Shown here in pieces: positions 54,149-63,363 of a DNA stretch of 64,000 nucleotides (the stretch's first letter is position 1; each line of letters begins with the position of its first letter). A model generated the notes under the pieces. It saw only the letters and a program-made list of their open reading frames with translations, made no database searches and was not told the origin of the DNA. The DNA is from an uncultured Bacteroidota bacterium. GTDB lineage: Bacteria > Bacteroidota > Bacteroidia > Flavobacteriales > Flavobacteriaceae. The stretch lies in the NCBI GenBank assembly GCA_902535165.1, contig CACASE010000003.1:57550-121549 (forward strand), in the 5' to 3' direction. Position numbers and translations under genes: made by a program.

Positions 54149-54817
54149 ATGAGAACTATTGTTTTATTGTTTTTTCCTTTATTAGTCTATGCTCAGACTA
54201 ACTTTGTATCATCAAGCTCATATGAATCAAACTTTCAATTAGTTCAAAGCGAAATTGCATCTGTATATAATCCTAAAACGACCAATTTTACTGGAAACAA
54301 GTATTTTTTTAAAAAATCTAAAGATGCTACATTAGTACTTTTTGATACTGATGAGCCCATTACAGTCAAGACTAATTACAACTTATTAGATCAAACTTTT
54401 GATATTGTTAGTGATGACAATGAAAAAACCTTAAAACTTCTTCCTAACAAAATTCTTAAAGTAAGTTTTGACGACAGAGTTTTTGTATCGAAAAATGGAA
54501 AGTTCTACGAGTCTATACATGAAAATAACAACTTTTCTTTATTAGCTGATACTTTTCTTGAAGCTTACATTCCTGAATATCAACCAGGAATCCAAGAAAA
54601 ACCAGATCCTAGATACAGAAGAAACAATTCTGTTTTCTTATATTACAAAGACAGGTTCACTTACATAGAAAGACGTAAAAACTTCTTGATATCTATTTTT
54701 CACAAATCCAAATCAAAAGAGATTAATAGTTTTTATAAAAAAAATAAAATATCACCAAGAGATGATGAAGAGCTTAAAGATTTATTTGTTGAATTTTTTG
54801 AATTTATAAACCTATAA
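54149..54817 (+). CDS. Secreted protein of unknown function
   Basis: I do not recognise this 222-residue protein. An N-terminal signal peptide (RTIVLLFFPLLVYAQ, cleavage after Ala-Gln region) has no lipobox, so the product should be periplasmic or outer-membrane associated. The middle (about 60-130) is predicted-looking beta (LVLFDTDEPITVKTNYNLLDQTFDIV); the C-terminus is basic with KSKEINSFYKKNKI. It resembles conserved flavobacterial proteins of no known function. It has its own promoter element and overlaps the converging aldolase gene by 6 nt. Confidence 0.65.
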   Translation: MRTIVLLFFPLLVYAQTNFVSSSSYESNFQLVQSEIASVYNPKTTNFTGNKYFFKKSKDATLVLFDTDEPITVKTNYNLLDQTFDIVSDDNEKTLKLLPNKILKVSFDDRVFVSKNGKFYESIHENNNFSLLADTFLEAYIPEYQPGIQEKPDPRYRRNNSVFLYYKDRFTYIERRKNFLISIFHKSKSKEINSFYKKNKISPRDDEELKDLFVEFFEFINL

Positions 54818-55420
54818 GTCCATAATTAACTGTGCTCTCCTATTTATTTCAATCCAATTAGAACTTTCAACCAAATTTTCATTAGCAATCCAGCTCAATC
54901 CAATGCCGACGATATTTTTGTGTTTTAAATAAGCTTTAATATTGCTAGAGTTTATGCCACCCATCGCTATAAACTTTAGCTCACTTAATTTATTCTTGTT
55001 TATAAGTGAGTTTAAATTTCTTATACCTCCCAAATTTTCAGCAGGATAATATTTTAGAAATTGACATTTATAATTTAATGCAGTATTAATATCACTGATG
55101 TTTGATACTCCAGGAATAAAATTAAAATTAATTTGCTTTGAATATTCCAAAATATTGTAATCAGTAACAGGGGAAAATGCATATTTGATACCTAATGATT
55201 TAACAAAGTTTAAATCTTCAACACTTAATACTGTACCTACTCCAATATTAAATTCGTATTTAGAATTTGTTATTAACTCAATGGCTTTTCTTGATTCGAT
55301 AGTTCTTAATCTAATATCTAAATTTACGATTCCAGAATCGAACAAACATTTTGCTAAATCCAAAGCCTTGGTTGAGTCTTTGATGGTTAATACTGATATG
55401 ATTTTATTATTTTTGATCAA
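54812..55420 (-). CDS. eda: KDPG/KHG-type aldolase
   Basis: Class I aldolase cleaving 2-keto-3-deoxy-6-phosphogluconate or -galactonate to pyruvate and glyceraldehyde 3-phosphate. 202 residues. The Schiff-base lysine lies in FLKYYPAENLGG, NFIPGVSNISD matches the FxPG strand, and FNIGVGTVLSVEDL the GAGTV loop. The conserved base Glu of the ExxLRT motif is Asp here (LDIRLRT). TTG start, overlapping the kinase by 14 nt; last gene of the sugar operon. Confidence 0.87.
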   Translation of the reverse strand: MIKNNKIISVLTIKDSTKALDLAKCLFDSGIVNLDIRLRTIESRKAIELITNSKYEFNIGVGTVLSVEDLNFVKSLGIKYAFSPVTDYNILEYSKQINFNFIPGVSNISDINTALNYKCQFLKYYPAENLGGIRNLNSLINKNKLSELKFIAMGGINSSNIKAYLKHKNIVGIGLSWIANENLVESSNWIEINRRAQLIMDL

Positions 55421-56399
55421 TACTTAATGAGTTAACTTTAAAGTTTTCAATTTCACTATCACTAATTGAATTTACATCACCAAATAATGTATGTGATATG
55501 GCAAAGGCAGATGTTGAATATGATATAATTTTTTGATCATCCCAGTTATTAAAAAAACCATTCATAGTTGCAGCTAAAAAAACATCACCAGCTCCAATCC
55601 TATCAACTTGATTGACTAAATAGCTTTTACTCAAATGAATATTTCCAAAATTAAATAGTGCACCTGCCAACATGTCTTTAAATCTAACAGTCATTCCTAT
55701 AAATGGAATATTAAATTTTTTATTTACAAAATTTATAGCATTCTTAGTTTCGGAGAAAAACTCATCATTTTTATAATTAAATTTATGGTTAAAGACTCTA
55801 GACAAGGTTTTTGCATTGGTAAATAAGAAATCAACATGGTTCAAAATTTTTAAATTAAAGTTCTTACAATCGTTTAATGACCACAATTTTTCTCTGTAAT
55901 TAATGTCATATATAATTTTTACACCTTTACTTTTAGAAATATCAATTATTTTAAAAATATTATCATAACATATCCTTGAAAGTGCAGGAGTTATTCCAGA
56001 AATAATTATATATGAAACATCCTTGATAATTTCATTAATGAATGATTCATTCAATATATATTTAGAAAAACTAGAGTCCTTTCTTTCATATATAATTTTT
56101 GATAGATTATTATTTTTACCTGGTATTGTATAATAAATTCCTAATTTATTGTCATCAAAAATTATATTTGGTTTTACATAATGTTCCTCAAGAAATTGTT
56201 TAGATTTTAATCCTAGTTCATTTGTTGGAAATGCAGACAAAAATGTACACTGATGTCCTTTACTAGCTAAGAAACATAATGAATTTGATTCTGATCCACC
56301 AAAATTAGTTTTAAACTCTTGTGATATACTTCTTTTTAAGGGACTATCGACCGGAGTATGTCTTAACATTAATTCACCATATCCGAGAATTTTTGTCAT
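55407..56399 (-). CDS. kdgK: PfkB-family 2-keto-3-deoxy sugar acid kinase
   Basis: Ribokinase-fold enzyme phosphorylating a 2-keto-3-deoxy acid at O6. 330 residues. YGELMLRHTPVDSPLKRSI and FGGSESNSLCFLASKGH begin the protein as in KdgK; IYDINYREKLWS is the substrate-binding stretch, and the PfkB signature VDRIGAGDVFLAATMNGF holds the catalytic Asp. It starts 0 nt after the transporter and overlaps the aldolase gene, so its product is almost certainly the aldolase's substrate. Confidence 0.88.
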   Translation of the reverse strand: MTKILGYGELMLRHTPVDSPLKRSISQEFKTNFGGSESNSLCFLASKGHQCTFLSAFPTNELGLKSKQFLEEHYVKPNIIFDDNKLGIYYTIPGKNNNLSKIIYERKDSSFSKYILNESFINEIIKDVSYIIISGITPALSRICYDNIFKIIDISKSKGVKIIYDINYREKLWSLNDCKNFNLKILNHVDFLFTNAKTLSRVFNHKFNYKNDEFFSETKNAINFVNKKFNIPFIGMTVRFKDMLAGALFNFGNIHLSKSYLVNQVDRIGAGDVFLAATMNGFFNNWDDQKIISYSTSAFAISHTLFGDVNSISDSEIENFKVNSLSIDQK

Positions 56400-57401
56400 T
56401 TATACAGAATTACCAAGACCTAATACAACAGCAGATATAATAAGAACTAGTAAACCTAAAAGCAGTTTGTTAAATGGTTTATTAGCATTTTTCCATTCTC
56501 CGGCCCTATATGCCCAATAATTACTTATTATGAGTGATAATCCTAATAATATTGGCCAACCAATAACTGGACCTATTTCGCCAAGTAATGCAGCCCCTTG
56601 ACCATAAACTCCAAGAGCAGCAAACCAACAAAACCCAGCTATAAACGACCATTTATATGCATTCTTCGCGTTTTTAAATGAAAATGTTTTCCAGGAATTA
56701 TTCTTTATTAATAAAAATATTGCATATCCAAAATTCATCATAAATGCACCCCAAAGAACAACTACCCATGCTGCTAAACTTGAATTCCTGGCAATAACAC
56801 CATATTCTTGTGCCTTATCAGCTATTGGTGCAGCATTAGCAAACCCCACATTTAAGAGCGATGATAATAATCCACAGGTAACTGCTATTAAAATCCCCTT
56901 TACAATATTACTTGACTTATTATCACTACTTAAAAGCTTGTCTCTTTCTATTCCAGCTTTTGCAGTTATAGCAACACCAATTAATGAAATTAATAAACCT
57001 CCAATTATATATGGAAATGAAGGCTGAGAAGTAGCATTTTCAATTTGAAATAAAGGAATCAGACTTCCTGCAGAACCAGCTAAACCCATGACAATACCCA
57101 TTGTTAATGACAAACCAATATACGGAACACTAACCCCAAACATGATACCACCAATTCCCCACAGAAATCCAAATAACATTGCTAAATAAATAGCATCTTT
57201 TGGTGAATTTGAAATAATTTCAAAAAGATCTGGGATCGCTATAATTGCCCATATCATTGGAAATAAAATCATTGCAACCAAAACATGTACAACCCACCAC
57301 GATTCCCAGGACATAGGATTCATATACTTCATACCTAATCCAAAAGTTCCTTGAAAAAAACTAGCAAAAATTAATAGTAAAAAAGGTAAAAATAGTTCCA
57401 T
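56400..57401 (-). CDS. RhaT-family sugar:proton symporter
   Basis: Polytopic inner-membrane protein, 333 residues with about ten hydrophobic segments. MSWESWWVVHVLVAMILFPMIWA, FGFLWGIGGIMFGVSVPYIGLSLTMGI and the later GAFMMNFGYAIFLLIKN match the L-rhamnose-H+ transporter family. The family in Bacteroidetes imports several monosaccharides, so rhamnose is not implied. It probably brings in the sugar made by the extracellular enzymes of this operon. No SusC/SusD pair is in the window. Confidence 0.82.
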   Translation of the reverse strand: MELFLPFLLLIFASFFQGTFGLGMKYMNPMSWESWWVVHVLVAMILFPMIWAIIAIPDLFEIISNSPKDAIYLAMLFGFLWGIGGIMFGVSVPYIGLSLTMGIVMGLAGSAGSLIPLFQIENATSQPSFPYIIGGLLISLIGVAITAKAGIERDKLLSSDNKSSNIVKGILIAVTCGLLSSLLNVGFANAAPIADKAQEYGVIARNSSLAAWVVVLWGAFMMNFGYAIFLLIKNNSWKTFSFKNAKNAYKWSFIAGFCWFAALGVYGQGAALLGEIGPVIGWPILLGLSLIISNYWAYRAGEWKNANKPFNKLLLGLLVLIISAVVLGLGNSV

Positions 57402-57407
57402 AATAAA

Positions 57408-58841
57408 TTATTTAGCAATACTGATTCTTTTTTTTATTAAGTAATCCTCTAATGCCAATTCTGAGCAATCATGTCCAACTCCACTCTGTTTGATTCCGCC
57501 GTGAGGAAGATATATATCATACTTAATTCCATTTACATGAATTTCGCCAAAATCAAGCTGATCCACAAACTTATCGATTCTTTTTTTGTCTTTAGTAAAT
57601 AAATATGAAGCAAGTCCATATTGGGTTTTATTAGCTTGATTTAAAACCTCGTCCTCATTTTTAAATTTAATTATACTTGCAACTGGTCCAAAAATCTCCT
57701 CATGAAAGATTGACATTGATTCATTAATTCCTGAGATGACTGTTGGTTCAAACCAATTACCATTCATTTTTGGAATTCCTCCTCCATATTCTAAATTCCC
57801 ACCAGAATCAATAGTATTTTTAATTAAATTAGTTATTCTATCCCTTGATTTTTTAGAAATTAATGGTCCGATTTCAAAATCTAAATCTTCAGAATAACCG
57901 ATTTTCAAATTTTTTGCTTTATCAATTAAACCTTTTAAAAATTTATCATATACTTTTTCATGAACAAAAAATCGGTTTGCAGCAACACAGATTTGTCCAC
58001 AGTTACCAAACTTTATGGCTGCTCCTATATTTATTGCAGTGTCAATATCAGCATCATCAAAAATAATAAATGGGGCATTTCCGCCTAATTCCATGCTATA
58101 TTTTTTAATTGATGTTGAGGAGTCAGAAATGACTTTTTTGGCTGTTTCTGTAGAGCCGATCATTGTTATTAGATTTGGTATTGTACTTTTAGATAAAGTT
58201 TGTGCAACTTCAGTTGGCTCTCCACATATAATATTAATTACACCTTTTGGAAAATTAATTTCTTTTAAAAGATTCCCTATGATATATAAAGATATTGGAG
58301 ATAATTCTGAGGGTTTTAGTATAAGACTACATCCAGAGGCCAAAGCTGGTCCAATTTTAAATCCGGCATTAAGTAGGGGAAAGTTCCAAGCTAAATAAGC
58401 CACAACTACTCCAATAGGTTTAGATACTAGTTTGTGATTGTGAGTCTCATCGTTTACAGCTATCTTCTCAGTTTTAACAAAATCATCAATTACATCAGCA
58501 TAATATTCTAAACTATTGGTAATGGATTCAATATCCTCAGCTGTAGCTGAATATGGTTTACCCATTTCATATGAAATTGCTTTTCTCAGTAAGACTTCGT
58601 TTTCCAGAATTTTTTCTCTAAGCATATACATCCATTCTTTCCTCTTGGTTAAAGGTAGTTTCGACCAGACTTTAAACCCTTTTGAGGCAGATTCCAAGGC
58701 TATGAGAGAATCTTTTTGGTTACCCCAAGCCAAAGAAGCAATTTTCTGTCCATTCAAAGGGCTATAAATATCTTTTGTGAGATTATCAACTGATGATTTC
58801 ATATCACCATCAATGTACATTTGAAGATTTCCAAATTCCAT
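57408..58841 (-). CDS. NAD(P)-dependent aldehyde dehydrogenase, sugar-oxidising candidate
   Basis: ALDH superfamily enzyme of 477 residues, related to the succinate-semialdehyde dehydrogenase branch. AYLAWNFPLLNAGFKIGPALASG, the cofactor motif MIGSTETAKKV, the Glu in MELGGNAPFIIFDDAD and the Cys in FGNCGQICVAANRF are complete. Set between an enolase-superfamily enzyme and a symporter in a keto-deoxy-acid operon, its likely job is to oxidise a sugar or anhydrosugar aldehyde to the acid. Lactaldehyde or 2-oxoglutarate semialdehyde dehydrogenase remain possible. It starts 2 nt after the enolase-superfamily gene. Confidence 0.83.
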   Translation of the reverse strand: MEFGNLQMYIDGDMKSSVDNLTKDIYSPLNGQKIASLAWGNQKDSLIALESASKGFKVWSKLPLTKRKEWMYMLREKILENEVLLRKAISYEMGKPYSATAEDIESITNSLEYYADVIDDFVKTEKIAVNDETHNHKLVSKPIGVVVAYLAWNFPLLNAGFKIGPALASGCSLILKPSELSPISLYIIGNLLKEINFPKGVINIICGEPTEVAQTLSKSTIPNLITMIGSTETAKKVISDSSTSIKKYSMELGGNAPFIIFDDADIDTAINIGAAIKFGNCGQICVAANRFFVHEKVYDKFLKGLIDKAKNLKIGYSEDLDFEIGPLISKKSRDRITNLIKNTIDSGGNLEYGGGIPKMNGNWFEPTVISGINESMSIFHEEIFGPVASIIKFKNEDEVLNQANKTQYGLASYLFTKDKKRIDKFVDQLDFGEIHVNGIKYDIYLPHGGIKQSGVGHDCSELALEDYLIKKRISIAK

Positions 58842-58843
58842 AA

Positions 58844-59971
58844 TTAGATCTTTACTTTGTTTAGATAGGTTTCATCAACATCAATTCCTAAACCTGGTTT
58901 AGTATTAACTTCAATATAACCATCTTTCATTACAATATTATTTTTAATTATATTTTCTCTTATTTTATTTTCTGTTCTGTCATACTCAATATAGGCGTCC
59001 TCTTGATACAATCTTCCTGGGATTGGTTCAAGATTAGATATAAAGTTAATAGCTGTAAAGAATGCAATTCCTGAGCCCCAGGTATGAGGGATAACCTTTA
59101 CACCTTTTGTAGAGGATAATGCTGTTATCCGCTTTGCCTCAGTTAAACCTCCACATGAGCATATATCCATTTGCAAAAAATCAATACAATTTTTATCCAA
59201 TAGTTTTTGAAATCCATATCTAAGATATTCACACTCACCTGCCGCGACGGGAATTGATGATTTTGCTTTAAAATCAGAATACTGATCATAAAATTCAGGG
59301 GAAAGTGGCTCTTCAAACCACTTAATATCAAAGCTTTCTAATTTTTTTGATAATTGTAAGGCCTCATCATATGAATATGCATGATTTGCGTCAATCATTA
59401 ATTCAATATCATAACCAATTGCATTTCTAACCTCTTTAACATTTTTAAAATCATCTTTTAGGTTTAGACCAACTTTCATCTTGATTGATTTAAAACCATC
59501 TTTTACATATCCTAATGCTTCTTCGCACAATTCTTCTGTGAGTGTTTTTGATTTGGAAAAATAAAGCCCAGTAGCATATGGTCTAATTTTATCTCTGTGT
59601 GAACCTCCTAAAAGAGTTGAAATTGGCTGCTTGTGATATTTTCCCTTTATATCCCATAAGGCAACATCAATTGCACTTATTGCTGAAAGAAATACGCCAG
59701 ATCGTCCATAGTCATGAACTCTTCTAAATAATGTTGACCAAATAACATCAGATTCTAGAGGACACATACCAATTATATTTTGTTTGATATAATTAATACT
59801 CTCTTTTACAACTGGTGCTGGCCCGTATGCTTCACCCCATCCAACTAATCCATTATCGCATATAACTTTGACAATACATATTTGGCGATTACCATACTCC
59901 CATTGTGAAAAGAAAAATTCTTTCTCTAAATCTTCATTTAAAACATATGGTGTTATCTCAACTATTTTCAT
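58844..59971 (-). CDS. Enolase-superfamily sugar acid dehydratase or cycloisomerase (mandelate racemase subgroup)
   Basis: 375 residues with the two-domain MR/MLE fold. The KxK acid/base motif is in FKSIKMKVG, metal ligands in LMIDANHAY, WFEEPLSPE and VAAGECEYLRYG, and the Asp-His dyad in FLQMDICSCGG and KVIPHTWGSGI. These mark the mandelate-racemase subgroup: sugar acid dehydratases and the 3,6-anhydrogalactonate cycloisomerases. With a keto-deoxy acid kinase and aldolase downstream, the product should be a 2-keto-3-deoxy hexonate. The track start (59989) overlaps the previous gene; the ATG at 59971, MKIVEITPYV, is the family-like start, 2 nt after that stop. Confidence 0.85.
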   Translation of the reverse strand: MKIVEITPYVLNEDLEKEFFFSQWEYGNRQICIVKVICDNGLVGWGEAYGPAPVVKESINYIKQNIIGMCPLESDVIWSTLFRRVHDYGRSGVFLSAISAIDVALWDIKGKYHKQPISTLLGGSHRDKIRPYATGLYFSKSKTLTEELCEEALGYVKDGFKSIKMKVGLNLKDDFKNVKEVRNAIGYDIELMIDANHAYSYDEALQLSKKLESFDIKWFEEPLSPEFYDQYSDFKAKSSIPVAAGECEYLRYGFQKLLDKNCIDFLQMDICSCGGLTEAKRITALSSTKGVKVIPHTWGSGIAFFTAINFISNLEPIPGRLYQEDAYIEYDRTENKIRENIIKNNIVMKDGYIEVNTKPGLGIDVDETYLNKVKI

Positions 59972-59973
59972 TA

Positions 59974-61587
59974 TTAAAATCCTTGCCAAAGACCTTTGGA
60001 ATCTTCTTTAATATAATCGATTCTTATTGATTTATTGAAATAAGTATAAAAATCTGGTATTGATTCCAATTCATATATTAATTGTTCCATATTGTAGGCA
60101 ACTCTTCTTCCTTCATTTATTCTATTGTAAAATGATACTAACGAAGATTCATATATGCTATTATTAGGTTGTATTAAAACATCTTTTGGCCAATGATTTT
60201 TTTTAAATACATTGTTCTCAAAAAAAATATTTTTAATCTCTGAACTACCACCCGGGTCCGGTCTGTACTGATCTCCCAAAACCATAATTGGATCATTTTC
60301 AAAATAAAAGATATTATTAGCAACAAAAGCTCCTTTTGATGCTTTATCAACAGCGATTTTTGGAATGATATCTTTTCCTACATAAACAAAATTGCCGTAA
60401 ATGTAAGAGTTAAAGGGGCCTTTCCTTTTATTTCCATTACCATTATAACCACTTAACCAAAAGGTTTTACCTTCTTGGAAAGCTCCATTCTCACCTTTTA
60501 CTCGATTACCATCATTAATACTAACATTATATCTGTAGGAACAGTTATAATTATTACCTAAAATCTCTATAAAACCACCTGAATTATTTTTACTTAAGTT
60601 TTTTTCGATAATTATATCGTTACAATTGTAATCTATGTGACAACCAGCAGAATCAGCAGGACCATTAGCATTTTGAAATATGTTTCCAGATATAAGTGCA
60701 TAAGAACTTCCCCAAGTCCAGAGTCCACTTCCTCTTCCCCATTTCCTGGTATCATCAAAAGATCCTGAAAAAGTAGTGACATTTCCTTTGGCAATTAAAT
60801 TTTTTGTTGAACTAAAAACCATCCCAGGTCCACCAGATCTTAAGACTCTGTTATTTAGAATTTTTAGATTTAAAAACTGTTTTCCTCGGGCACCTTTAAA
60901 TCTTATTGCAGTGTGTGATATATTTGAAAAAAATGAATTTTCAATTTTAATATTTTCTAAATTTCCTTTATTAGAAAGATTGTTAACTCTAACTCCCCAG
61001 CCATAACTTTTTGTTCCATTTGGTGTACGTGCTTCTCTTTCATCTCTAATATATCCAGAATCTTCAAAAAAAACATCTCTAATATTAACATCTGATATAT
61101 TTAAATTATTGTGAATCTGTTCATCAGTAACTAAATATAAAATCCCTGCCCTTAAATCAGTTTTTAATTTTTTATGTAAAAATTCATTAGCACCTCCACC
61201 ATTTGCAGTTATTTCAATGTTTCTTATAATTATGTTGGATGAATTTTCAATAAATATAGCGGCTATTTTTCCTTTGTTATTTATTGTTGGAGTTTTTCTG
61301 TTTCCATCAATCATGTAATTTGAAACCTCAATTCTGTTCTTATTTATTAAATTAATAGTATTGGTAAAAACTGAACCATTAGCTAATAATATTTTATCAC
61401 CCTCTTTTAGTTTGATGTTTTCAATAAAATCTAGGGATTTTAGAGGTTTTTCTCTAGTTCCAAGGTTGTTATTATCTCCGTAAATGGAATTGAAATAATA
61501 CGAATGACCTACACCATTTTTTTCACCTATCTCACCCTGTGAACAAGATGTTAAAACAGAAAGCAAAACTATTAATAGATTTTTCAT
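59974..61587 (-). CDS. Right-handed beta-helix lipoprotein, candidate polysaccharide-active enzyme (paralogue 2)
   Basis: 537-residue lipoprotein: lipobox VLTSC near residue 15, then SYYFNSIYGDNNNLGTREKPLKSL, the usual opening of secreted beta-helix proteins. From about residue 80 to 430 it shows repeating coils with Asn ladders (ISDVNIRDVFF, IENSFFSNISHTAIRFKG). A conserved core GPADSAGCHIDYNCND, NLSKNNSGGFIEILGNN and SYRYNVSINDGNR is shared with the upstream paralogue. Carboxylates in that core could be catalytic. Many such proteins are lyases or glycoside hydrolases, but I cannot assign a family. It abuts both neighbours (0 and 2 nt gaps). Confidence 0.78.
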   Translation of the reverse strand: MKNLLIVLLSVLTSCSQGEIGEKNGVGHSYYFNSIYGDNNNLGTREKPLKSLDFIENIKLKEGDKILLANGSVFTNTINLINKNRIEVSNYMIDGNRKTPTINNKGKIAAIFIENSSNIIIRNIEITANGGGANEFLHKKLKTDLRAGILYLVTDEQIHNNLNISDVNIRDVFFEDSGYIRDEREARTPNGTKSYGWGVRVNNLSNKGNLENIKIENSFFSNISHTAIRFKGARGKQFLNLKILNNRVLRSGGPGMVFSSTKNLIAKGNVTTFSGSFDDTRKWGRGSGLWTWGSSYALISGNIFQNANGPADSAGCHIDYNCNDIIIEKNLSKNNSGGFIEILGNNYNCSYRYNVSINDGNRVKGENGAFQEGKTFWLSGYNGNGNKRKGPFNSYIYGNFVYVGKDIIPKIAVDKASKGAFVANNIFYFENDPIMVLGDQYRPDPGGSSEIKNIFFENNVFKKNHWPKDVLIQPNNSIYESSLVSFYNRINEGRRVAYNMEQLIYELESIPDFYTYFNKSIRIDYIKEDSKGLWQGF

Positions 61588-63363
61588 CTAGTTACCATTA
61601 TATGCACCTATATTAGGCTTTGAATCATTACTTACAGCGTTACCAAAATAATCTCTTCCACCGTTATTCTGAATGTAATTTTTAGAATCTGAACTACCAT
61701 TTATTGTATAACCGGTTCCTAATGCTGGACTTGTAGATTGTAATTTATAGTCATTAGCTGTTGTACCACCAGGATTTACAAGTAAAGGATTTGTAAATAG
61801 TTCTGTTCCGTTATGCTCATAGTCTGATGAACCGTCGATAATTAAATTTCCATAAAATAAATTATTCTTCCAATCATTCATTGTGCCGTCATTTCTTGTA
61901 TCAATCTTTAGTTTAGCTTTATCGCTTATATAAATTAGGTTATTGTATATATATGTTTCTTTTGTATTTGGTCTTATAAATATCTGTAAGTGGTCAAATG
62001 GTGTATTATTATTAGCAGGATTTTGACTTGGAATAAAGACGGTGTTATTATAAATAAAATTATCCTGAGACCCAATTCTCCTAGTGTTGCTACCAGCATA
62101 ATCAGAAACCCAAAATGTTTTTCCGACATTAGAATTTGTTCTTCCACCATCACCTATACTGATATTGTATCTATATCCACACATTATATTTTCACCTAAT
62201 ATTTCAGCAAATCCACCATAGTTGTTTTTACTTAAATTATATTGAATTACTACTCTTTCACATCCCCAATCAATATGCGCTCCATAGGAATCTGCTGGTC
62301 CATAAACATCTTCAAAAATATTATTCTGAATTACCGTATCATTACAAGTGTACGTCCATAAACTACTCCCTCTGTTCCACATTCTGTTATCATTTCCAGA
62401 TCCTGAGCCCTTAAATTCAGAGTTCTCAACAACAACATCTTTACATCTGGCTAAGACTATTCCTGAACCCCCAGTATCATTAAACTTGCTATTCTTAATG
62501 GAAATATTTCTATGATAATAATCAGCCTGAGCACCAGACATTCTGTTCACTATATGAATACCATAGTGTCCAGTATTAGAAATATCTAAATTATCAATCT
62601 CTATTCCATCATAATAATTTAAAACATTATCATCATTAAGTGATTCAAATCTTATGGCATAACCTTGGTGATTATTGTCTGAATTTGAAGGAGTTGGATA
62701 TATCTCTGAAATTTTAATGTCATCCAGCTTTATATCGTTAATATTTGAAGATCCGTGTCTTAAAACTAATAGTCCAAATCTTTCATCTTCACCTGATCTG
62801 CTTGATTGATTCATTAATTTAACTGATCCATTGCTGTTTTTATGAGATGCCTCATTTGTCAAATCTAAACCACTAATATTAACATATTCTTGATTTTCAA
62901 TAAAAACAGCTGCCTGATATCCGTTACCATCAATTTTAGGTTTATTTCCACTTGAGTAGCTTTCAATTACAATAGGCTTATCTTGAGATCCAGAACCTCT
63001 TAACTTAAAATAACCTTTCCACGTCTCACCTGATTTAAACCTTAACTTATCTCCAGGCTTAAATGTTATACTATTTACTTTACCAAGATTTTTGAAAGCC
63101 TTGTCTTCACTTTTACCATCATTATTATCATTTCCAGAATTATAACTTATGTAGTAAGTTGTATCTCCAGGAGATGTTGTCGAATCAAAATCATTTGGAT
63201 CTGTAGTGTCAGTAGTTCCTGAATTACTTCCACCTCCATTATTATTACCTCCTCCATTGTTGTTTCCACCTCCATTATCTGAACCCCCAGAGTCTCCACC
63301 AGAATCTGACGAACATGCAATAACAAATATTGATATAATTAGTAAAAAAATTTTCTTTTTCAT
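61588..63363 (-). CDS. Right-handed beta-helix lipoprotein with Gly/Asn linker, candidate polysaccharide-active enzyme (paralogue 1)
   Basis: First gene of the operon, 591 residues. The lipobox VIACSSDSG is followed by a flexible Gly/Asn/Ser linker (about 18-60), acidic near the Cys as in surface-exposed Bacteroidetes lipoproteins. The body opens with TYYISYNSGNDNNDGKSEDKAF and forms beta-helix coils to about residue 500. Core motifs RGSSLWTYTCND, GPADSYGAHIDWGCER, NLSKNNYGGFAEILGEN and YRYNISIGDGGR are shared with the downstream paralogue. Probably a cell-surface glycan lyase or hydrolase, family not recognised. Divergent sulfatase upstream. Confidence 0.78.
   Translation of the reverse strand: MKKKIFLLIISIFVIACSSDSGGDSGGSDNGGGNNNGGGNNNGGGSNSGTTDTTDPNDFDSTTSPGDTTYYISYNSGNDNNDGKSEDKAFKNLGKVNSITFKPGDKLRFKSGETWKGYFKLRGSGSQDKPIVIESYSSGNKPKIDGNGYQAAVFIENQEYVNISGLDLTNEASHKNSNGSVKLMNQSSRSGEDERFGLLVLRHGSSNINDIKLDDIKISEIYPTPSNSDNNHQGYAIRFESLNDDNVLNYYDGIEIDNLDISNTGHYGIHIVNRMSGAQADYYHRNISIKNSKFNDTGGSGIVLARCKDVVVENSEFKGSGSGNDNRMWNRGSSLWTYTCNDTVIQNNIFEDVYGPADSYGAHIDWGCERVVIQYNLSKNNYGGFAEILGENIMCGYRYNISIGDGGRTNSNVGKTFWVSDYAGSNTRRIGSQDNFIYNNTVFIPSQNPANNNTPFDHLQIFIRPNTKETYIYNNLIYISDKAKLKIDTRNDGTMNDWKNNLFYGNLIIDGSSDYEHNGTELFTNPLLVNPGGTTANDYKLQSTSPALGTGYTINGSSDSKNYIQNNGGRDYFGNAVSNDSKPNIGAYNGN
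63228..63312 (-). repeat. Low-complexity repeat coding a Gly/Asn linker
   Basis: Short imperfect tandem repeats of GGAGGT and AATAAT-like triplets encode GGGNNNGGGNNNGGG after the lipoprotein cysteine. It is a spacer lifting the beta-helix off the membrane, and its length may vary between strains. Confidence 0.7.

Follow-up and report, generated by a model that had tools for sequence, protein, structure and literature searches.

Tandem GH136-like lipoproteins beside a 3,6-anhydro-D-galactose pathway: predicted glycosidases for a carrageenan-like galactan in a marine flavobacterium

Introduction

The window analysed here, a stretch of 64,000 nucleotides that forms the end of contig C3 in the draft genome of an uncultured flavobacterium (1.32 Mb, 40 contigs, 82% complete), encodes two adjacent lipoproteins, A and B, which are very probably GH136-type hydrolases. 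With a probability of roughly 0.5, we read them as exo-glycosidases of the retaining type that act on a carrageenan-like sulfated galactan and most likely fill the step releasing 3,6-anhydro-D-galactose (D-AnG). From four computed results, namely the fold, the catalytic pair, the operon and a statistical link to the cycloisomerase DauB, we infer the substrate, the linkage and the order of the steps. Compared with the characterised members of GH136, the predicted substrate and role, the absence of a partner domain, a histidine signature and the operon are new.

Results and Discussion

Genes A and B lie head to tail on the minus strand (Table 1), and their open reading frame translations both start with a lipobox signal peptide (...FVIAC17 in A, ...VLTSC15 in B). 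BLASTP aligns the two proteins with 31% identity over 431 aa (E 8e-54), and because of this value their shared core can be attributed to homology and not to chance: All five motif blocks that the first-pass annotation of this DNA had listed as a common ordered core are found in both, in the same order. A family profile built from 51 relatives matched every GH136 lacto-N-biosidase found in the PDB (7v6m 4e-59, 6kqs 1e-55, 5gqc 1e-52, 24mr 2e-49, 7v6i 1e-46), and the next match, an alginate lyase at 5e-11, covers about 70 residues only. As single sequences, A and B match GH136 entries of the PDB at 4e-20 and 2e-14, respectively. The AlphaFold (AF2) models are confident for both proteins (A: pLDDT 89.9, pTM 0.87, with linker residues 17-50 below 50; B: pLDDT 89.2, pTM 0.89), and in Foldseek GH136 structures take the top ranks for A (2e-20) as well as for B (9e-13), ahead of PL6 and other beta-helix lyases, which by profile and Foldseek provide neither the best sequence match nor the nearest fold. 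Pfam and NCBIfam returned generic or sub-threshold matches only, that of Pfam being the generic Beta_helix model. The earlier expectation of beta-helix lipoproteins and a carbohydrate-active enzyme is supported. The accompanying suggestion of a possible undescribed CAZyme family is contradicted by the clear profile match to characterised GH136 enzymes: The fold and the catalytic pair are already known, and A and B are not a new family in that sense.

The likeness to the GH136 lacto-N-biosidases LnbX (5gqc), ErLnb136 (6kqs), TnX (7v6m) and BsaX (7v6i) comprises the right-handed beta-helix, an aspartate pair seven residues apart, an aromatic residue at the -2 stacking position, an RYN motif and an N-terminal strand block, whereas A and B differ from them in overall sequence (about 20% identity), in a histidine that replaces the aspartate before the nucleophile, in a clade-specific R-G-S together with E387 and R408, and in their location in D-AnG pathway loci with sulfatases. 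Moreover, they come without LnbY or an N-terminal helical partner domain: Neither protein has an extra N-terminal domain, and the cluster holds no gene for such a partner (LnbY/GH136I). In LnbX, RhLnb136 and ErLnb136, the members for which this has been shown, the partner is needed for activity, and because it was not found here we call A and B GH136-like and not GH136 without reserve. Marine genes are annotated as GH136 in practice (PMC9723794, PMC8653839), in the latter case on a polysaccharide-rich chromosome.

Concerning the catalytic residues, D568 of ErLnb136 acts as acid/base and D575 as nucleophile (PMC7335108). The two residues align with D358 and D365 of A at an identical seven-residue spacing, provided that the chain index runs two ahead of the numbering in PMC7335108, in which case W548 falls on a tryptophan; an aromatic residue occupies the W548 position in 49 of 51 relatives. 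Both aspartates, which lie in the motif DS-G-HID, are invariant in the 51 relatives. Hence, by homology, D365 of A and D319 of B would serve as nucleophile and D358 and D312 as acid/base in a retaining mechanism. Across the aligned relatives, most of which were found by two search patterns, one of them containing DS.G.H[IV]D, the invariant positions (A numbering) are R331, G332, S333, W336, G355, D358, S359, G361, H363, D365, G383-G384-F385, N392, Y397, R398, N400, S402, G406 and R408, and E387 is kept in 50 of 51. Most relatives found later by profile, free of any pattern filter, keep DS.G.H[IV]D as well; the exceptions are one DA-GIHID, the more distant DASACHFD and DAQGYDSD in the separate C1b clade. 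H363 takes the place of the first aspartate in the canonical D-A-D, the C1b clade retaining D-x-D, and R331, S333, E387 and R408 have no counterpart in the GH136 sequences aligned. The 'Asp, His, Asp, Glu' that had been proposed as an active or metal site correspond to D358, H363, D365 and E387 of A. The proposal holds insofar as these residues belong to an acidic active site and not to a buried structural ladder; as a metal site or lyase it fails, since the aspartate pair matches the acid/base and nucleophile of GH136 and is consequently a glycosidase pair.

The source genome harbours two more paralogues on contig C1: C1a (670 aa), which adjoins a GH16 lipoprotein, and C1b (478 aa). That this GH16 protein is a known kappa-carrageenase is not supported, its PDB matches being laminarinases and other glucanases. 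A scan of GTDB species genomes yielded 80 loci, and a tree, calculated by a quick method and with long branches flagged, shows A, B and C1a as clades of their own, all three with good support, and places C1b apart from them. Because A and B fall into different clades, both of which also include relatives from other genera, a recent local tandem duplication is ruled out and the old duplication postulated in the first-pass annotation is corroborated.

Directly downstream of B, and in the same direction, follow the dau genes, whereas the sulfatase gene is divergent from A (Table 1). The start of the DauB open reading frame overlaps the end of B, and its best PDB match, 5olc, is the DauB of Zobellia galactanivorans, a 3,6-anhydro-D-galactonate cycloisomerase (PMC5698469). 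All of dauA, dauB, dauC and dauD are present in the cluster, DauA, DauC and DauD being assigned by family and position only. A relative with 95% identity (L026) has the whole sulfatase, and a GH2 enzyme follows it. We had also considered contig C11 as the continuation of the sulfatase and discarded it: The complete L026 sulfatase differs at its C-terminus, and what comes after it is the GH2 gene and not the genes of C11. The nearest solved structures of the sulfatase point to no single substrate, and those of the GH2 enzyme of the relatives (989 aa) are beta-glucuronidases and beta-galactosidases.

Table 1. Positions of genes and predicted catalytic residues within the window
Feature	Position	Strand	Remark
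DauD-type KDPG/KDPGal aldolase	54812-55420	minus	family match
DauC-type KDG/KDGal kinase (PfkB)	55407-56399	minus	family match
RhaT-family sugar permease	56400-57401	minus	family match
DauA-type aldehyde dehydrogenase, predicted 3,6-anhydro-D-galactose dehydrogenase	57408-58841	minus	Pfam Aldedh 6e-136; adjoins DauB here and in relatives
DauB-type 3,6-anhydro-D-galactonate cycloisomerase, enolase superfamily	58844-59989	minus	PDB best match 5olc, E 1e-131
Protein B	59974-61587	minus	537 aa GH136-like lipoprotein; short linker
B D319	60631-60633	minus	counterpart of GH136 nucleophile
B D312	60652-60654	minus	counterpart of GH136 acid/base
Protein A	61588-63363	minus	591 aa GH136-like lipoprotein; long Gly/Asn linker (about residues 20-60) after lipid-anchor Cys
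A D365	62269-62271	minus	counterpart of GH136 nucleophile D575 of ErLnb136
A H363	62275-62277	minus	marine-clade signature; takes place of Asp in GH136 D-A-D motif
A D358	62290-62292	minus	counterpart of GH136 acid/base D568 of ErLnb136
Sulfatase, N-terminal 204 aa, cut by contig end	63387-63998	plus	MCGPSRA formylglycine-type motif

This arrangement recurs: In marine Flavobacteriales, 17 loci, mostly from single-cell or metagenome genomes, contain neighbouring orthologues of A and B next to dau genes and a sulfatase, with GH2 adjoining the sulfatase in 10 of the 17; in most of the other seven the contig ends before the GH2 position. Genes of the C1a type lie beside or near GH16 in 17 of 37 loci. 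Five of these C1a loci (L088, L092, L094, L099 and L103) additionally contain GH2, an SGLT-type transporter and DauB and, where the contig extends, DauA/RhaT, galT/galK and three sulfatases. In the Zobellia galactanivorans carrageenan locus (dagA GH127, dagB GH129-like, dauABCD, sulfatases) the same logic of DauA, DauB, kinase, aldolase and sulfatase is found; the locus of the window differs in that the assembly has no GH127 and in that A, B and a GH2 enzyme, the latter seen in relatives, belong to the cluster. A search for GH127 (PF07944) gave no match in the 82% complete source genome or in 12 of 14 related genomes. The GH129 model (PF11308) matched no control genome, so that GH129 may be present all the same.

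DauB orthologues occur in 19 of 29 genomes that hold a GH136-like gene, as opposed to 10 of 396 genomes of the order and 5 of 394 of the class (Fisher p 7e-19 and 2e-21, respectively), counts that, like those for GH127 below, take no account of kinship. The 29 genomes were chosen only for holding a GH136-like gene, two being already known from their locus; the order and class samples were evenly drawn, the source genome is excluded from the order count and two genomes are in both samples. A DauB match as such is present in 20 of the 29, at about 48% identity or more in 19, and the enrichment spans three clades. Of 12 DauB genomes in which no GH136-like gene was detected, 10 have GH127, the family known to release D-AnG, no more than 25 kb from DauB, compared with 4 of 32 DauB genomes that do have such a gene (p 2e-5); for three of the 12 (G611, G726 and G779) the search for GH136-like genes was limited to the DNA around DauB, and the GH127-free genomes are mostly incomplete single-cell or metagenome assemblies related to one another. 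Outside the 12, G101 combines GH127 near DauB with a GH136-like copy that contains an internal stop. Of the nine named isolates that have both DauB and a GH136-like gene, GH127 is missing from only three. Three isolates of 5.6-6.4 Mb (two Carboxylicivirga, Labilibacter) possess DauB and show no strong GH127 match, and Flammeovirga, Wenyingzhuangia and Pontiella have GH127 near DauB plus GH136-like genes. Since G252 and G726 lack both GH127 and a GH136-like gene in the vicinity of DauB, and have a GH2 together with a GH78-like gene instead, another enzyme may release D-AnG.

On this basis, the substrate is predicted with good confidence to be a galactan with D-AnG, in agreement with the algal sulfated galactans envisaged in the first-pass annotation. 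In Zobellia, the dau enzymes depend on GH127/GH129-like enzymes for the prior liberation of D-AnG, and a dagA3/dagB double mutant fails to grow on carrageenan (PMC5698469). Because GH127-free clusters need another enzyme at this point, we tentatively assign A and/or B to the D-AnG-releasing step, a role that is plausible at somewhat less than even odds. The candidates for this step are A, B and GH2 in the window cluster and the GH136-like, GH16 and GH2 genes in L088-type loci, where GH16, GH2, sulfatases, galK/galT and dauAB accompany one GH136-like gene and nothing else stands out clearly as a candidate. Several GH127-free dau clusters share the 989-aa-type GH2, which is itself a candidate for D-AnG release.

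The cluster of GH2 enzyme, sulfatase, A, B, DauB, DauA, permease, kinase and aldolase would consume a carrageenan-like polymer as follows: The sulfatase would strip sulfate, GH2 would take off beta-D-galactose, and A and/or B, exo-acting and anchored as lipoproteins, would cut at the alpha-1,3 bond of D-AnG, thereby releasing either D-AnG or the disaccharide carrabiose and standing in for GH127/GH129. If carrabiose (Gal-beta-1,4-AnG) is released, it would be split by GH2, and its release would parallel that of lacto-N-biose, with galactose in the -2 site. After uptake of D-AnG, DauA would oxidise it and DauB would open the ring, and phosphorylation and cleavage to pyruvate and glyceraldehyde-3-phosphate would follow.

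Glycosidase families seldom switch anomeric sense, and alpha-D-AnG has the opposite anomeric sense to the beta-D bonds cut by GH136; by family stereochemistry, a beta-D-galactose bond would therefore be the more natural target. Alternatively, A and B could be exo- or endo-carrageenases that attack the beta-1,4 linkage joining galactose to D-AnG, releasing for example neocarrabiose, with D-AnG freed by another enzyme. This would keep the beta-D specificity and biose-releasing mode of the GH136 enzymes characterised so far, all lacto-N-biosidases cleaving beta-D-glycosides, of which LnbX is retaining and has a pocket, not a cleft (PMC8106489). The known carrageenases (GH16, GH82) do not occur in some carrageenan loci, for which the authors anticipated novel carrageenase families (PMC5698469), and the long flexible linker of A suits a surface enzyme working on a polymer. 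However, D-AnG release in GH127-free clusters would be left unexplained, and a GH16 that would serve the beta bond is present in L088-type loci anyway, although of a type closest to PDB laminarinases. We consider such a carrageenase less likely, if the strongest competitor.

It is more doubtful still that a side chain or a different sulfated glycan is the target of the GH136-like enzymes and that they share the dau loci because the natural polymer carries both. Some genomes, for example those of Echinicola and Christiangramia, do have B-type genes without DauB, and these copies read DSAGAHID and not DSAGCHID. Furthermore, a marine flavobacterium, Winogradskyella forsetii, has a PUL that by its description resembles ours in combining GH136 genes with sulfatases and for which the authors could name no substrate (PMC9723794). 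The DauB enrichment across three clades argues against a separate substrate, as does the tight dau operon in 17 loci, in which nothing else would need the removal of a side chain. It is very improbable that A and B are PL6/chondroitinase-B-type lyases equipped with a metal site: Such lyases would share the right-handed beta-helix, and after GH136 it is PL6 chondroitinase B that Foldseek ranks highest for A (1e-7), but GH136 comes first for A by about thirteen orders of magnitude in Foldseek and also by sequence, the conserved pair is that of a glycosidase, and a D-AnG galactan contains no uronic acid to lyse. Least probable of all is a lacto-N-biosidase activity, which homology, the conserved catalytic aspartates and the aromatic residue at the W548 position would suggest and against which stand the marine plankton setting, the D-AnG operon with sulfatases, the lack of a partner domain or neighbouring LnbY-like gene, the Asp-to-His exchange beside the nucleophile and the clade-specific R331, S333, E387 and R408.

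Conclusion

Tentatively, and at less than even odds, we suggest that a marine branch of the GH136 fold became an enzyme releasing D-AnG or carrabiose, an unrelated replacement for GH127/GH129 that spread through marine Flavobacteriales with genomes of 1-2 Mb, Marinilabiliaceae and others. A full-text literature search, which covered neither subscription papers nor preprints, returned one genome survey and no functional study of GH136 with carrageenan. If the proposal is true, marine GH136 genes, to which the literature assigns no substrate, would gain one, carrageenan-type loci devoid of GH127 would gain a candidate for their missing enzyme, and a family hitherto linked to human milk sugars would acquire a second, unrelated role. 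3,6-Anhydro-D-galactose is known mainly from red seaweeds. It would also come to light that marine bacteria with small genomes possess a pathway for this sugar, and, should A and/or B indeed release it, a D-AnG polymer would be available to plankton in the open sea.

Further GH136-like paralogues and related loci

Besides the tandem pair A and B, the organism's own genome encodes two further GH136-like paralogues on contig C1 (see table). The types of C1a and its neighbouring GH16 lipoprotein, whose closest PDB matches are laminarinases, co-occur repeatedly, namely in 17 of the 37 loci of the C1a clade. C1b retains the canonical D-x-D signature of GH136 and falls in a marine clade of its own. 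In this genome, the surroundings of C1b contain no evident polysaccharide locus. The GH2 fragment on contig C36 is 51% identical to the GH2 of loci that combine a C1a-type gene with GH16, GH2, sulfatases and DauB, and together with the adjoining sulfatase it is probably a further piece of galactan metabolism.

Paralogues and related loci
Feature	Location	Source
C1a, 670 aa, GH136-like paralogue with divergent GH16 lipoprotein	L006:14547-17530	own genome, C1
C1b, 478 aa, GH136-like paralogue	L007:4783-6219	own genome, C1
Sulfatase adjoining LacZ-type GH2 fragment	L018, small contig	own genome, C36
DauB cluster with sulfatase, GH2 and GH78-like enzyme	L117, L128	G252, G726

DauB, the 3,6-anhydro-D-galactonate cycloisomerase, has neither GH127 nor GH136-like genes nearby in L117 and L128; GH78-like genes also adjoin C1a-type genes in Carboxylicivirga. 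In genome G101, GH127 adjoins DauB, and the GH136-like gene at L118, which is broken by a stop codon, is possibly a decaying redundant copy.

A-type relatives also occur on contigs labelled Cellvibrionales and Euryarchaeota (L045, L046), which may reflect binning error or transfer. Among B-type relatives, DSAGAHID replaces DSAGCHID in L063, L064, L072, L086 and L100. Because a search for DauB found none in either of the two DSAGAHID genomes tested, Echinicola (L063) and Christiangramia (L072), this variant may mark another substrate.
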